Origin: Ligilactobacillus agilis DSM 20509
Lineage (GTDB): Bacteria; Bacillota; Bacilli; Lactobacillales; Lactobacillaceae
DNA length: 51,424 nucleotides
Direction of reading: 5' to 3'
Assembly: GCF_001436215.1 (NCBI RefSeq)
Contig: NZ_AYYP01000063.1
Location: 47,215 to 98,638 of the forward strand
Part shown: positions 21,033-50,545 of the stretch, piece after piece
How the letters are laid out: every line of letters begins with the position of its first letter
Position numbering within the stretch: the stretch's first letter is position 1
Made by a program: the position numbers and the translations under genes
Notes under the pieces: generated by a model
What the model saw: the letters and a program-made list of their open reading frames with translations, nothing else
Told to the model about the DNA's origin: nothing
Databases searched by the model: none

Positions 21033-22340
21033 TTACCACTTCAAGTCAAAGTCACGTTCGTTATCCAAGCACAGATACATGAACTGATCGCAAGTATGAT
21101 CTTTTTCCTTGATAACTTTAGGATCATCGCTATTCAATGTTTTCTCGTCCCACCGATAGTCACGATGTTCGGATAAAAAGACTTGATTATTTTCAATATC
21201 CAGCACAAAAATACGACCTTGCGCAAGCATATCCTGCGCCCGGTCGATCATCTCAACTTTTTTCTTTTTAGCCACTTTGTGCCAGTGCACACCAAACATC
21301 GAATAATATTGATTATCTAACGCACCATCTGCACTATCTGCTGTCATGTTGGCTGGATCCATATTATAGCGATCGCATATTCCTTCAACAAAGTCATGCA
21401 CATCTTGTGCCAGTTCTGTCGGTGGCTTTTTGCGCACCTTACCCGCTGGGCTGTAATAATACGTATCTAACACATAAAGATTACCGTTCACTGACAGACC
21501 ATAAGCGCCACAGGTAGTTGCAGATACATCGTGACCAATATCCATTGAAAAATAAAGATCAGTCAGATAATCATTATCAGGTATCTGGTCCACCTTTTTG
21601 AATAAATCGAAGTTATAGACGTTAGTACCAAGTCCTACGACTTCACCTAAGTAAAGCCACCGATAATAGTCTGGATCATTTTCTTTGTACTTTTCGATGA
21701 GCTTTAGTTGTTGATCAGTGGTAAAGCCTAGCTCATCATCTAGGTAAGTGCTCGTATCGATAAAATAGTCTGGATCGTTTTCTTTATCAGTCACCCACTC
21801 ATTTACCCAATCATAAGGGTTTCTTGGTGGGTTATAACTAAAGAATACTTGCACCGTATCAATATACCTCGCTTTTTGCCGGATAAATGTCGGGATCGCT
21901 TGATCAAATACATCTGGGCCCTTCATGTTCGCAGCCTCCTCAAACCATACCGAAACAATGTCACGTACCGTATTTGACTTAAGTTTGAAAGGATCATCAG
22001 CACCATAAAAATAAAACGTGCTTCCGGTCCGTCTATGCACAATCCTGAGCGGTGATGAGTATGCTCTGAACTCATCGGATACATGCAATAGGTCCATAGC
22101 CCACAAAATTTGATTATAGACACTATCGCGCAAGTATGTTGCATTCTCACGCACACAGATCACGTTAGCCTTACGATTTTTTTGGGTCTGTTGCAACACA
22201 TTGACAACTAGACGTAAGCTGATCACAGATGACTTGAATGACCCACGACCGCCCTTAGCGATGATATACGGCTTTTTAGTGTTCCACATACCGTAGAAAT
22301 GTGGGTTTATCTGCTCAGATAGCTTTACAATATTAGTCAT
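21033..22340 (-). CDS. terL: terminase large subunit
   Basis: A 435-residue packaging motor. The N-terminal ATPase has a Walker A-like GGRGSFKSS near residue 30, [13 protein letters not shown], and the Walker B region [13 protein letters not shown]. The C-terminal nuclease part begins at [20 protein letters not shown] (first acidic residue) and continues through [16 protein letters not shown]. The ATG chosen overlaps the end of terS by eight bases and has GGAGG upstream; a longer in-frame start lacks a ribosome site. This type normally packages by the headful mechanism. Confidence 0.92.
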
Positions 22341-23172
22341 CTTGTTTAGCCTCCTCAATGTCATTTAAAACAACTGTCTTAGGTTTGTCGCTTGTATCAT
22401 CAGCACTTGGCAGACGCTCAAGCAATTCTTTCATCGCTCTTTGTTTGTCATACATCTCGACAACAGCTTCGCCATCGTTGATGCGAATACTCTTGACGTT
22501 CGATGTGTCGATCGTATCGCTATCTTTAAGCAAGACTAGATTTTCATAGTAGAATGCTTGTTCTCCTGTTTCTGGGTCGATTTTAGGATCTAAACGATAG
22601 TGTCCATTAGCATCTTCATACTCACCCGTGTCGTCAGGTACTTTATTCCACTTAAGGCGCTTAACTGTCTTAAATTCTAAAACGTCTGTAACGTCGCTGT
22701 GAGCTTGTTTAAGATAGCTGAGCATAATATCATTAGCCGTTGCATAAAGTTCAGCAGACTGCTGTTTTTTTAGCTCTGTGAGTTGCTTTTTTACCTGAGC
22801 ATTTCTGAGCAATCTAGGTCCGTTTGTCATTGCTGTTGGATAGTCAGCGCCATAAGCTTGCTGATACGCCCAAGTAGCGTTGTATCGTTGCAAGTAATAC
22901 AAACAAAAGGCTTTTTGACGGTCTTTTAGCTCATCGTTTTCGACTAGCTCATCGATTACATCCGGGCTTCTTGCCTGTGCAACTTTGCTCTTTTTTGTGT
23001 GCACCCTTTTTGCCTTTTTGTGTGCACCCTTTTTTGTGGTTGCATCTCTTTGCCAACCATTGCGACTTTTCCAAGATTTGACAGTATTAAGTGACACGCC
23101 ATACTTTTCGGCGATGTCCTTATACTTCATTCCGGCTAAATAGTCCTTTTCAGCATCTTCAATGCGACTCAC
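22333..23172 (-). CDS. terS: terminase small subunit
   Basis: A 279-residue protein. Residues 1-40 form a helix-turn-helix ([20 protein letters not shown]), followed by a repeated lysine-rich stretch ([17 protein letters not shown]). The Terminase_2 core is residues about 75-145 ([20 protein letters not shown], then [20 protein letters not shown]). The C-terminal part is acidic and should form the oligomer and TerL contact. It recognises the packaging site, often located within or just upstream of this gene. An AGGAGGTGG ribosome site precedes it. Confidence 0.88.
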
Positions 23173-23210
23173 TTTATATCACCCACCTCCTAATTTGTAA
23201 TTTAGTTCAA

Positions 23211-23312
23211 TTACTTCTTGCCGTCTTTCTTGCTAGTCTCACGATCAAGCTTATTGATCAAATATTCTTCTAAGCCACAGCTCACAAGAGCAACGTCTTT
23301 TGTCTGTTTCAT
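23211..23312 (-). CDS. short LVSCG-motif protein
   Basis: A 33-residue reading frame with ATG preceded by GGGAG. Its sequence KDVALVSCGLEEYLINKLDRET lines up with a 53-residue protein at 25689-25850 (KDYGLVSCGYELKIIAELNRKT), so two diverged copies of one small family lie in this prophage. The single conserved cysteine in VSCG and the charged helix are all that can be seen. Function unknown. Confidence 0.55.
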   Translation of the reverse strand: MKQTKDVALVSCGLEEYLINKLDRETSKKDGKK

Positions 23313-23329
23313 ATTGCTCCCTTTCTGCA

Positions 23330-23350
23330 AAATAAAAAGCCAGCCTGGCT
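23330..23350 (-). terminator. terminator closing the hairpin-rich unit
   Basis: On the minus strand AGCCA/TGGCT forms a short stem followed by TTTTTATTTT. It lies between the 72-residue frame and the next small gene and marks a plausible 3' end for the structured transcript. Confidence 0.5.
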
Positions 23351-23858
23351 AGACTGACTATTCTCTACATTATTTAGGTTTAATTTATCTAATATTCTTT
23401 TTTCCTTCAAAACTTCGCTTTCTAAAACTATTCTTTTCTTCTCTTTTATACCAAACTTTTCTATAATCCAATCCATATACCTTCAACTTCTCTCCAGCGT
23501 GTTGTTCTAATGCTTTTAATTGTCCGGAATAGTTAGTATCAAACATATTATCTTTTTTATATAAATATTGTCTGTCTTTTCCTAAAACATCACGAACTGT
23601 CAATAATGACTAGACTTTATATTGAGATGAAATTCAAACAAAAGCAAGCCGGTGGATTTGCACCACACGAGTTTTCTAACCCAGCCACCCGATCGCGCTT
23701 GGTTTTAAGCTGGAGCTTGCATAATACCACTATAAGGGCAGTGGCCACCCGCATACATCATGGCATGCTCACATGCTCCTTCATTCTCAAAGGAGAGACA
23801 TCATTCATGGCGGAATGATTTCATTACGAAAAACCAACATTTTTCGTGCCATCGGCAC
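23335..23858 (-). ncRNA. candidate ornate structured RNA upstream of terS
   Basis: From 23858 down to about 23640 there are consecutive perfect hairpins: GTGCC/GGCAC (23846-23858), CGAAAAA/TTTTTCG (23827-23846), ATCATTC/GAATGAT (23800-23819), CTCCTT/AAGGAG (23777-23796), GCATG/CATGC (23763-23776), CCACT/AGTGG (23727-23744) and GTGG/CCAC (23652-23666). A closing stem GCAAGC/GCTTGC spans 23644-23720; its seventh pair is G-U only if the minus strand is transcribed. No good coding frame exists in this part. The second half is A-rich and has a distant AACTATTC/GAATAGTT pairing. The unit runs about 520 nt from a putative late promoter to a terminator. Large ornate RNAs such as GOLLD and ROOL lie in Lactobacillales prophages, so this may be one of them or a new class; I cannot verify it. 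Confidence 0.5.
23385..23603 (-). CDS. uncertain small hypothetical frame
   Basis: A 72-codon frame rich in lysine and tyrosine (TNYSGQLKALEQHAGEKLK; LDYRKVWYKREEKN). The only start at full length is TTG without a ribosome site, and the first in-frame ATG is 20 codons in, also without one. It may be the 3' half of the structured RNA rather than a gene. It resembles no family I recognise. Confidence 0.3.
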   Translation of the reverse strand: MTVRDVLGKDRQYLYKKDNMFDTNYSGQLKALEQHAGEKLKVYGLDYRKVWYKREEKNSFRKRSFEGKKNIR

Positions 23859-23882
23859 ATTAACATAATATTACATAAAGTA

Positions 23883-23920
23883 TCCGCTTGTCGTCCGCTC
23901 TTTTTCCGCCAATTTTCCGG
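23883..23920 (-). promoter_or_regulatory. four phased GCGGA boxes, candidate late-activator site
   Basis: On the minus strand the pentamer GCGGA occurs three times and CCGGA once, each exactly 11 bases after the last (plus-strand TCCGC at 23883, 23894, 23905 and TCCGG at 23916). One helical turn of spacing places all four on one DNA face. AT-rich -10-like hexamers (TAATAT, TATTAT at 23865-23873) follow at the right distance for the boxes to cover the -35 position. This is the layout of an activator-dependent promoter, and the ArpU-type late regulator is encoded just upstream. A terminase binding site is the alternative. Confidence 0.5.
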
Positions 23921-23961
23921 TAAAATTCCATTTTTTATAAAATAGCCACATTTACAAGAGC

Positions 23962-24005
23962 ATAAAAAAACGATATACTGAAGTTGTATCTATCAGCATA
24001 TCGTT
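23962..24005 (-). terminator. terminator after mazF
   Basis: On the minus strand AACGATATGCTGA pairs with TCAGTATATCGTT (one G-U) and runs into seven T. It insulates mazEF from the downstream unit. Confidence 0.85.
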
Positions 24006-24034
24006 TCGTTCCTAGTCGTTCCCTAGGAACTTTT

Positions 24035-24385
24035 TTATTTATATCCAAACATCGCTTGGATAATCGTATCCACTTCGACGGGAACTTCAACCTTTTCGAC
24101 AAAAGACCAGTCCCTGCTGTTGACATCTAAAGCCGTAAGCTGATTACACAGCAATGTACCTCCCGTCTTAGAATTATGTTGTTGTTTATCCCAGCTATAT
24201 ACTAGCGGATAATTTCTAACAGTAGTAGTAAACGGAATGGCAATTACGAATGGGCTTGTCCTATTTACAAGTTGTTCACTCACCACCAACCAGGGACGTC
24301 TCCCTCTTTGTTCACTATTACCGCTAGGTTTAGGACCACTTGAAATCGAAATGATATCCCCTCGCCCTAATACTTTTTTGGCCAT
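24035..24385 (-). CDS. mazF: MazF-type endoribonuclease toxin
   Basis: A 116-residue PemK/MazF toxin. Visible signs are the start KVLGRGDIISISSGPKPSG, the conserved GRRPWLVVSEQLVN, the SPFVIAIPFTTT strand with the catalytic-type threonines, then GGTLLCNQLTALDV and the final VEVDTIIQAMFGYK. It should cleave single-stranded mRNA at a short motif when its antitoxin decays. ATG is chosen because GGTGG lies eight bases upstream. It follows mazE by 67 bases and is closed by a strong terminator. In a prophage it may stabilise lysogeny or block other phages. Confidence 0.88.
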   Translation of the reverse strand: MAKKVLGRGDIISISSGPKPSGNSEQRGRRPWLVVSEQLVNRTSPFVIAIPFTTTVRNYPLVYSWDKQQHNSKTGGTLLCNQLTALDVNSRDWSFVEKVEVPVEVDTIIQAMFGYK

Positions 24386-24452
24386 GTTGCCTGCCACCTT
24401 TATAAAAATATTTCCGTGTTAAACGTTACTAGCTTCACTCGCACGGATAATA

Positions 24453-24713
24453 TTAATATAGCTCTTCGCCAACTGCTCCACCCTTATTAACAACTTCAAA
24501 TGGATAGTCAGCATCTAAATCATAACCTTCAAATAATTTTTCTAACATCTTTTTTTCTCGCTTAGGTTTAAGAATAATTTGATTATCTTCAACTTTATAA
24601 AATAGTTCATCTTTGTCACCTAAGTCTAGTTCTTCTAGTACCTTTTTGGGAACTCTAATAGATAGACTGTTCCCCCACTTTGCCAATGTCAATGTCCCGG
24701 TTCTTTCGTTCAT
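24453..24713 (-). CDS. mazE: MazE-type antitoxin, AbrB fold
   Basis: An 86-residue protein with the swapped-hairpin DNA-binding domain at residues 7-50 (LTLAKWGNSLSIRVPKKVLEEL and DNQIILKP are typical) and a disordered acidic C-terminus (FEGYDLDADYPFEVV) that should wrap the toxin. It precedes mazF and has an AGGAGG ribosome site. A palindrome overlapping its promoter is the likely site of autoregulation by MazE or the MazEF complex. Confidence 0.88.
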   Translation of the reverse strand: MNERTGTLTLAKWGNSLSIRVPKKVLEELDLGDKDELFYKVEDNQIILKPKREKKMLEKLFEGYDLDADYPFEVVNKGGAVGEELY

Positions 24714-24890: not shown

Positions 24891-24919
24891 ATTATAAACA
24901 GCAGTTCAATCAATGTAAA
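24891..24919 (-). promoter_or_regulatory. promoter at the end of arpU
   Basis: On the minus strand TTTACA (last codons of arpU) and TATAAT are separated by 17 bases. Transcription would start near 24884 and meet the terminator at 24820, giving a short RNA of about 65 nt, or read through into mazEF. Confidence 0.5.
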
Positions 24920-25355
24920 CATGCAAATCCGGGCAATAATAGCCTTGCACTTCAAAAATATCCGCAAACTCATTTAAAGCCCGCTTCTTAACTTCGTAAT
25001 ATCGTGATTTTTCAAAGTGCAACTGCTCCATTGCACGAACAGAAGATATCTTACCTAAGACATCATCACAGACAATCTTCATCTCAATTGAACCTTTGCT
25101 AAGTGTAGCTGCAACTGCATCAACAATTACTTTAGCTGCTAGATACCGGCTCATCTTTCTGTCTACACTATTACCAAAGCTGCCTGATGACATTCCAGAT
25201 AAGCTAGGTGATTGCAAATTTTTAGGATCCGCAGTTAAACAAATCCGCTTTAATTTCGGATAGCAATCCTTATTTGTTAAGAATTCTAGCACGCTTTCTG
25301 CTGTTTTATCATAGTCAACCCGAGGTATATCTAGGGTTATTTGCTCGCTTGTCAT
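24906..25355 (-). CDS. arpU: ArpU-family late transcription regulator
   Basis: A 149-residue protein matching the ArpU family: the central SPSLSGMSSGSFGNSVDRKM is the family signature, followed by the helix AAKVIVDAVAATLSKGS and a C-terminal helix-turn-helix-like FEKSRYYEVKKRALNEFADIF, recalling sigma region 4. ArpU proteins end the early/middle operon of Gram-positive phages and switch on packaging and structural genes. The phased GCGGA array 1 kb downstream is a candidate target. The ribosome site is AAAGGGAG. Confidence 0.82.
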   Translation of the reverse strand: MTSEQITLDIPRVDYDKTAESVLEFLTNKDCYPKLKRICLTADPKNLQSPSLSGMSSGSFGNSVDRKMSRYLAAKVIVDAVAATLSKGSIEMKIVCDDVLGKISSVRAMEQLHFEKSRYYEVKKRALNEFADIFEVQGYYCPDLHVYID

Positions 25356-50299: not shown

Positions 50300-50545
50300 C
50301 TAAAAACAAAAAAGTCCCATACGGGCCTAAAACCCATATAGGACGAAATTCCGCGGTACCACCTATATTCCAGTCTCTCACAACTGGCACTCAATTTCAT
50401 AACGGGAAATACCGTCTAAACTTACTTAGGTTCAGTTTAGAAACTCTAAGGTGAGTTCGTTAAATAACTAATGTGTGTTCTCAGCTACCACACACTCTCT
50501 TGGATTAGTCCATTTAACTACTAGTCCTTATCTACGTTTAGTGTT
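50300..50545 (-). promoter_or_regulatory. T-box leader of leuS, leucine specifier
   Basis: The T-box AGGTGGTACCGCGG lies at 50351-50364 (minus strand). Downstream is the terminator GTCCTATATGGG/CCCGTATGGGAC with six T (about 50310-50344). Upstream is stem I with AGTGTGTGG/CACACATT-type arms and the AG-bulge region; GAACTCACC carries CTC, a leucine codon, at 50453-50455. Uncharged tRNA-Leu should stabilise the antiterminator and allow leuS expression. A promoter TTGCAA-17-TAAGAT lies near 50550-50580. Confidence 0.9.

Follow-up and report, generated by a model that had tools for sequence, protein, structure and literature searches.

In tmRNA, the acceptor stem and T arm of a tRNA are kept and the anticodon arm is replaced by a longer helix. 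The human MALAT1 transcript is a long RNA followed by a tRNA-like domain, mascRNA, through which RNase P generates the 3′ end. The late leader (6S) RNA of phage lambda is a short transcript of the late promoter that ends at a terminator before the late genes. GOLLD and ROOL are described in one report (PMC12286853) as structured RNAs of phages or prophages that are often close to tRNA islands, and the GOLLD linker as sometimes containing phage tRNAs.

An unannotated feature on the minus strand of the window (the whole stretch of DNA analysed, 51,424 nt of Ligilactobacillus agilis DSM 20509) very probably works as an RNA, judging from its sequence, and shares something with each of these systems. 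Compared across its relatives, it is an RNA in which two hairpins (A and B), an acceptor stem, a T arm and a hairpin at the position of the anticodon arm are conserved. The main point, missed in the preliminary description of this DNA, is that its 3′ part is a tRNA-like domain. Like tmRNA, this domain keeps the acceptor stem and T arm and has its anticodon arm replaced, but its T-loop begins with UGC rather than UUC, and ARAGORN reports neither a tmRNA nor a tRNA in the window. As in MALAT1/mascRNA, an RNA is followed by a tRNA-like domain, although there is no homology between the two and processing of the window RNA is putative. It differs from lambda 6S RNA in being tRNA-like and in its presumed activation at initiation. 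With GOLLD and ROOL it has in common that it is structured and carried by a phage or prophage, but it is much shorter, has no Rfam match and, where the GOLLD linker sometimes holds phage tRNAs, ends in an apparently non-decoding tRNA-like tail.

The preliminary description had proposed GOLLD or ROOL as possible identities. At the gathering score, Rfam reports only a T-box in the whole window (50336–50543, 150.7 bits). A search of 23180–24100 at E up to 10 gave no GOLLD (RF02032) and no ROOL (RF03087) but seven matches to other families, all far below their cut-offs (best E 0.33), and 23630–23740 gave no match to tRNA (RF00005) or any other Rfam family at E up to 10. Of 26 genomes examined in the genus, five match ROOL, this genome not among them; for the four of these five whose flanks were read, no 11-bp array lies above the ROOL match. 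A GOLLD search of 121 genomes returned no matches, and its controls were silent too, so it permits no conclusion on hosts. Given the lack of an Rfam match, neither identity is supported. Searches of open-access literature on the RNA, its setting and Lj965 listed no title or abstract with a description of this RNA.

The features of the locus, in 5′ to 3′ order of the minus strand, are as follows (L numbers denote related loci).

24906..25355, minus strand: late transcription activator, phrog_248 (E 1.4e-21)
23880..23920, minus strand: direct repeats phased at 11 bp (CGGA four times), found by lag-11 self-match; presumed operator of an ArpU-type late activator
23865..23870, minus strand: −10-like TATTAT, with a putative transcription start at about 23856–23859
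23846..23858, minus strand: 5′ hairpin H1, 4 bp; by eye kept with small changes in L033, L167 and L009
23826..23847, minus strand: hairpin H2, from the stem count; conservation seen by eye in L033 and L167 but less clear in L009
23800..23819, minus strand: hairpin H3, from the stem count; by eye kept in L033 and L167
23776..23795, minus strand: hairpin H4 with CUCCUUU, anti-Shine-Dalgarno-like, from the stem count; any role is a guess
23751..23768, minus strand: hairpin A, 6 bp, loop CRUGAU (covariation, eight sequences)
23727..23744, minus strand: hairpin B, directly 5′ of the tRNA-like domain (covariation, eight sequences)
23644..23720, minus strand: tRNA-like domain, acceptor stem formed by 23714–23720 with 23644–23650 (14 distinct sequences)
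23681..23713, minus strand: hairpin CCAGC/GCUGG at the place of the anticodon arm; its loop has 23 nt, in contrast to the 7 nt of an anticodon loop (14 sequences)
23668..23680, minus strand: conserved linker GUUAGAAAnnUCG at the position that the variable arm has in class II tRNAs (pattern scans)
23652..23666, minus strand: T arm, 4 bp, loop UGCAAAU instead of UUCRANY (reading and relatives)
23329..23359, minus strand: intrinsic terminator, 9-bp stem 23338–23359 and T run, 284 nt below the tRNA-like domain
22333..23172, minus strand: terminase small subunit (terS), the first recognised late gene below (Pfam Terminase_2, E 7.9e-25)

On the minus strand from about 23644 to 23858, the window holds a chain of hairpins that stands above chance in paired bases and not in folding energy. 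With G-U pairs allowed, seven non-overlapping stems of at least 5 bp, totalling 48 bp, can be placed in 23641–23858; 175 of 1000 dinucleotide shuffles reach seven stems and 15 of 1000 reach 48 bp. With Watson-Crick pairs only, there are four stems and 26 bp, reached by 18/1000 and 1/1000 dinucleotide shuffles, respectively. The seven perfect hairpins reported earlier thus stand if G-U pairs count and shrink to four if they do not; H1, at 4 bp, falls under the cut-off. Two of the seven stems are not among the conserved ones: TGGGTTAGAAAACTCG (23668–23683) competes with the conserved stem at 23681–23713, and 23650–23665 is another register of the T arm. Folding energy for the whole region is ordinary (z of −0.72 for the minus strand, −1.92 for the plus strand and −0.61 for 496 nt), so energy alone would have missed the chain and slightly favours the wrong strand. 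The conservation of H1 to H4 was judged by eye and lies outside the covariation scoring. By a loose pattern, a CUCCU string lies 104–134 nt upstream of the linker in all eight full-length members described below.

Relatives were collected by several routes. With terS as the starting point, 78 viral and 80 genome loci were retrieved, and reading of the DNA revealed the same RNA above terS in L009 and L033; pattern scans added L166, L167 and L185. A covariance model built from these five and the window (R1) was run against 350 genomes of the family, nine of which had a match at E up to 1; it found L194 and L201 in one genome of the same genus (E 4e-10 and 1e-8), and its matches L195, L197, L198 and L200 (E 0.0095–0.88) were dropped as no domain was seen on reading. 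The full-length set therefore comprises eight distinct sequences (the window, L009, L033, L166, L167, L185, L194 and L201), with the repeats L007/L165, L163, L170 and L164 of the window, L009, L033 and L167, respectively, not counted. A model of all eight (R2) matches 2 of 395 genomes of the order, this genome and one tail-only relative. The RNA family is rare. DNA similarity searches gave no match in phage records; the one hit among plasmid records was short (4% of the query), fell at the beginning of a different gene and was rejected. Among 301 genomes of the family, three had a DNA match: this genome, L004, which is real, and L003, which lies inside a protein gene and was taken as chance. 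One of the pattern scans, with a loosely defined pattern, picked out 26 stretches. Six of these hold the RNA (L163, L165, L166, L167, L170 and L185), with only L185 a new sequence; on inspection by eye, 16 of the other 20 were taken as chance and four hold a different tRNA-like stretch. These four (L171:13273, L177, L181 and L182) share one core, with ends GTGAATG/CATTCAC and T-loop TGCAAGC, and a tRNA-like stretch with the same ends also occurs downstream of the tail in L196 and L213.

Aligned to the model, the eight sequences have 97.8% of cells paired versus 79.7% in shuffles, 15 of 24 pairs changed on both sides versus 8.1, and a covariation score of 0.567 versus 0.222 (0/500 shuffles in each case), in an alignment that, being fitted to the model, leans towards structure. 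Sliding the partner by 1–3 columns lowers pairing to 25–43%. An unfitted MAFFT alignment of six sequences also gives 93.8% paired and nine pairs changed on both sides (0/500 each), with further pair types not above shuffles (439/500). In hairpin A, all scored cells are paired, five of six pairs have changed on both sides and the loop CRUGAU is kept; in hairpin B, all scored cells are paired and all seven pairs have changed on both sides (n = 8 for both). Within these eight, no variation is seen at four of the seven acceptor pairs, and three sequences lack the outer T-stem pair, so support for the acceptor stem and T arm rests on more distant relatives. The covariation in homologues that the preliminary description had proposed looking for is thus present.

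Two further properties of the set bear on strand and coding. G-U cells number 17 and A-C cells 0, which identifies the minus strand as the RNA, as a G-U pair in the closing stem had suggested earlier, and counts against a feature of the DNA only. The idea of a DNA-level site by terS, a packaging site or replication element palindromic by chance, draws on the adjacency to terS, where cos or pac sites often occur; given that the counts follow the pairing rule of one RNA strand and that some tail relatives are not beside terS, we give it hardly any credence. The matched stretches are 133, 133, 134, 136, 136, 145, 146 and 146 nt long, and differences that are not all multiples of three argue against coding. 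A 72-codon frame with a TTG start (23385–23603) lies outside the structured part, between tail and terminator; the stretch holding it is absent there in L009, L033, L166, L167 and L185, and the frame has no match in the phage collection.

The tail runs from 23720 to 23644 as a 7-bp acceptor stem, the CCAGC/GCUGG hairpin, the linker GUUAGAAAACUCG, the T arm and the 3′ acceptor strand. The acceptor stem is the closing stem first noticed from the window (GCAAGCT/GGCTTGC, 7 bp, one G-U pair). The linker with a UGC-type T arm occurs in 19 stretches of viral contigs and with a GGC-type T arm in one; a wider linker/T-arm pattern has seven sites in 6 of 397 family genomes, and a reversed-pattern control has none. 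Reading of these stretches identified 13 new viral ones and L215 as tRNA-like, one of the viral ones (L202) being a real tRNA. Fourteen of 22 parsed sequences were scored; excluded were L202, a tRNA, and seven sequences almost identical to L196/L204 (L203, L205, L206, L208, L209, L211 and L213). For L009, L033, L199 and L004 the acceptor register was assigned manually, the automatic pick being shifted or elsewhere. In the 14, the acceptor stem has 93 of 98 cells paired (0/10000 shuffles as high) and the T stem 61 of 70 (1/10000). The stem at the anticodon-arm position has all 70 cells paired (0/10000), a figure that leans upward because its 5′ strand was picked as the best-pairing 5-mer. Other acceptor stems among these relatives are UGACAGG/CCUGUCA, GAACAA/UUGUUC, AAUAAU/AUUAUU and GAUACG/CGUAUC. 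Energy-only folds of 13 domains give a cloverleaf in L167, L185, L196, L199 and L215, nearly one in L212, and a cloverleaf without a D arm in the window and L033; those of L009, L166 and, in part, L194, L201 and L004 differ from the proposed fold. The first and fifth bases of a T-loop touch. T-loop positions 1, 5 and 7 switch together, between UGCAANU (10/14) and GGCAGNA (4/14), even between the close relatives L199 (UGCAANU) and L215 (GGCAGNA), with L033 departing from L009 likewise, and this joint switch fits a T-loop with such a contact. Taken together, a real RNA family with a tRNA-like tail is highly likely.

Against the features of a working tRNA, the window has a 7-bp acceptor stem beside a T arm with a 7-nt loop, on a T stem of only 4 bp. 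It has neither a 7-nt anticodon loop on a 5-bp stem (here 5 bp and 23 nt) nor the T-loop UUCRANY. With a large-looped hairpin for an anticodon arm and the D arm gone, the domain should not decode. The window lacks an encoded CCA, and conservation does not extend to the base that follows the acceptor stem, which makes charging with a particular amino acid unlikely. The loop at the anticodon position keeps GAUC or GAUU in all eight full members; in the speculative reading given further below, the RNA may pair there with a second copy of itself.

The likely source of the domain is a phage tRNA. All four of the tRNA-Tyr(gta) genes that ARAGORN calls with a long variable arm in the phage loci have UGC in the T-loop, against none among 46 distinct tRNAs of hosts, taken from 30 loci. 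Two shorter phage genes assigned to Tyr carry UUC, and UGC was also read in one phage tRNA-Trp. By our reading, L202, which lies in an array of phage tRNAs, contains a tRNA-Tyr-like gene that ARAGORN does not list, with anticodon GTA, an encoded CCA and the T-loop UGCAACU; a linker of the same pattern occupies its variable-arm position, and R2 matches it at E 0.002. Because linker and UGC T-loop occur together in this gene, we read the domain as probably descended from a phage tRNA-Tyr that lost decoding. With this class II tRNA it would share the 7-bp acceptor stem beside a T arm with a 7-nt loop, the variable-arm linker as in L202 and the UGC T-loop; it differs in that the anticodon arm has become a hairpin with an 11–28-nt loop in the window and its relatives, in the D arm missing from the window type, in the lack of an encoded CCA and in the 5′ hairpins fused to it. 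The loss of D arm and anticodon, at a site where the relative Lj965 carries tRNAs, could also be taken as the decay of a tRNA gene without function. That reading is very improbable, being already largely refuted by the covariation, since compensatory changes occur in stems that are new relative to a tRNA and the linker is conserved in distant phages.

Several further observations concern tRNAs and tRNA-like stretches at or near this position. Lj965 (L192) has annotated ordinary tRNA genes between activator and terS, preceded at 1000–1730 by a long, apparently structured stretch in which Rfam reports tRNAs only; R2 weakly touches the end of this stretch and the first tRNA (E 0.026). Diverged tRNA-like versions were seen by eye between activator and terS in Ligilactobacillus murinus (L083), its phage phiEF-1.1 (L191) and contig L008; the models give weak support to L008 (E 0.05 and 0.16) and none to L083 or L191. 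Below the tRNA-like domain, L199 and L004 (in L004 at about 1600–1980) have a further stretch in common that resembles a second structured RNA; this stretch has no Rfam match at the gathering score, and L199 900–1800 gives two chance-like ones (E 0.2 and 0.33). A GCTCTGT hairpin ends 4–5 nt before several different phage tRNAs (L012, L019, L026 and L034), in a position like that of hairpin B. A leader hairpin with a CCUUA loop before phage tRNAs, which we also considered, is unsupported by count (1/49 phage, 0/55 host).

The RNA lies in a late-promoter-like setting. As first reported, the chain starts below a phased activator-like array, here CGGA four times at 11-bp steps with TATTAT between array and chain, and the self-match of this array is reached by 1 of 2000 mononucleotide shuffles. 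Arrays phased at 11 bp occur in 8/8 full members, each reached by at most 5 of 2000 such shuffles and with a repeat unit that varies between phages, which together with the covariation bears out the proposed structured minus-strand RNA below a late-promoter-like array; the array is absent from all six tail-only loci tested. TATTAT or a similar hexamer is seen by eye in several relatives, and promoter-like consensus matches in 23180–24060 are at chance level (3 found, 2.8 expected). Of 21 loci, 19 (all but L206 and L212) were examined for a late activator gene upstream, and 14 have one (phrog_36, 248 or 2198); in L009, L033 and L167 other cargo genes come next instead, and in L203 and L211 the upstream gene gave no family. 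As in an ArpU-dependent late transcript, the window RNA is below both a phased array and an ArpU-type activator gene, the latter behind MazEF. Downstream, terS or terL follows in 8/8 full members, in some after one more gene.

Terminator-like sites in 23180–24060 exceed chance (5 found, 0.4 expected), and the terminator about 520 nt below the putative start is where it was first placed. A clear terminator follows the tail in seven of eight full members, at 12–38 nt in L009, L033, L166, L167 and L185, 81 nt in L201 and 284 nt in the window, with none in L194 by the same criteria. Since these terminators stand between the RNA and terS or terL, polymerase needs some means of getting past them. 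RNAs that modify RNA polymerase for terminator read-through include the put RNAs of phage HK022 and the EAR RNA of Bacillus, and the leading rival explanation is a cis-acting late-operon leader that does the same at the terminator before terS and at later ones. Its position at the head of the late genes would suit such a role, as would the ending at a terminator that it shares with the lambda late leader. However, antitermination has no need of a tRNA-like fold, tail-only relatives precede unlike genes (an exonuclease in L203 and L206, a methyltransferase in L212), and ArpU-type proteins are thought to act at initiation. We consider this explanation unlikely, although it comes before those of a decoy and a relic.

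The phages differ in what they carry in the slot that separates the late activator gene from the late promoter: MazEF in the window (24035–24713), a HicB-like protein and toxin in L167 (2619–3269) and other genes in L009 (679–2484) and L033 (402–2195). In the window, L033 and L167, the terminators that close this slot resemble one another in sequence.

Toxin-antitoxin genes just upstream in the window and L167 would fit a tRNA decoy, an abundant late RNA that occupies host enzymes or toxins binding the elbow and acceptor of tRNAs and so shields phage translation, and so would the keeping of acceptor, T arm and variable region with the decoding parts lost. Many known tRNA nucleases, however, cut the anticodon loop, which is absent here, and the neighbouring genes change from phage to phage; we regard a decoy as improbable.

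We favour, with a probability of about 0.5, a discrete late noncoding RNA of a temperate phage whose tail is handled by tRNA enzymes, and we infer that the phage has its host in Lactobacillaceae. The mechanism we propose, which has close to an even chance of being right, is as follows: (i) The late activator would start the transcript at the late promoter. (ii) Enzymes that need no more of a tRNA than its acceptor/T-arm half, namely RNase P, RNase Z and perhaps the CCA-adding enzyme, would recognise the tail. (iii) Cuts at the ends of the tail would separate and stabilise the leader RNA. (iv) Some polymerases would read through the terminator towards terS. More speculatively, and as an idea we think unlikely to hold in full, this may be a new phage RNA family in which a tRNA-Tyr was turned into a non-decoding structural module and fused to a late leader, giving a small RNA directed at the ribosome or at tRNA enzymes and made only at phage takeover. 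In this reading, the upstream CUCCU strings might bind the start sites of messengers or compete for these sites with 16S rRNA.

Such RNAs escape both Rfam and an ordinary tRNA finder. The purpose of the tRNA genes that are common in phages is debated, and the relatives of this one late-promoter stretch span ordinary tRNAs, as in Lj965, to a seemingly non-decoding tRNA. Because an apparently non-decoding tRNA has been kept by selection on its base pairs, it would offer a direct test of which part of a phage tRNA is of use without translation.
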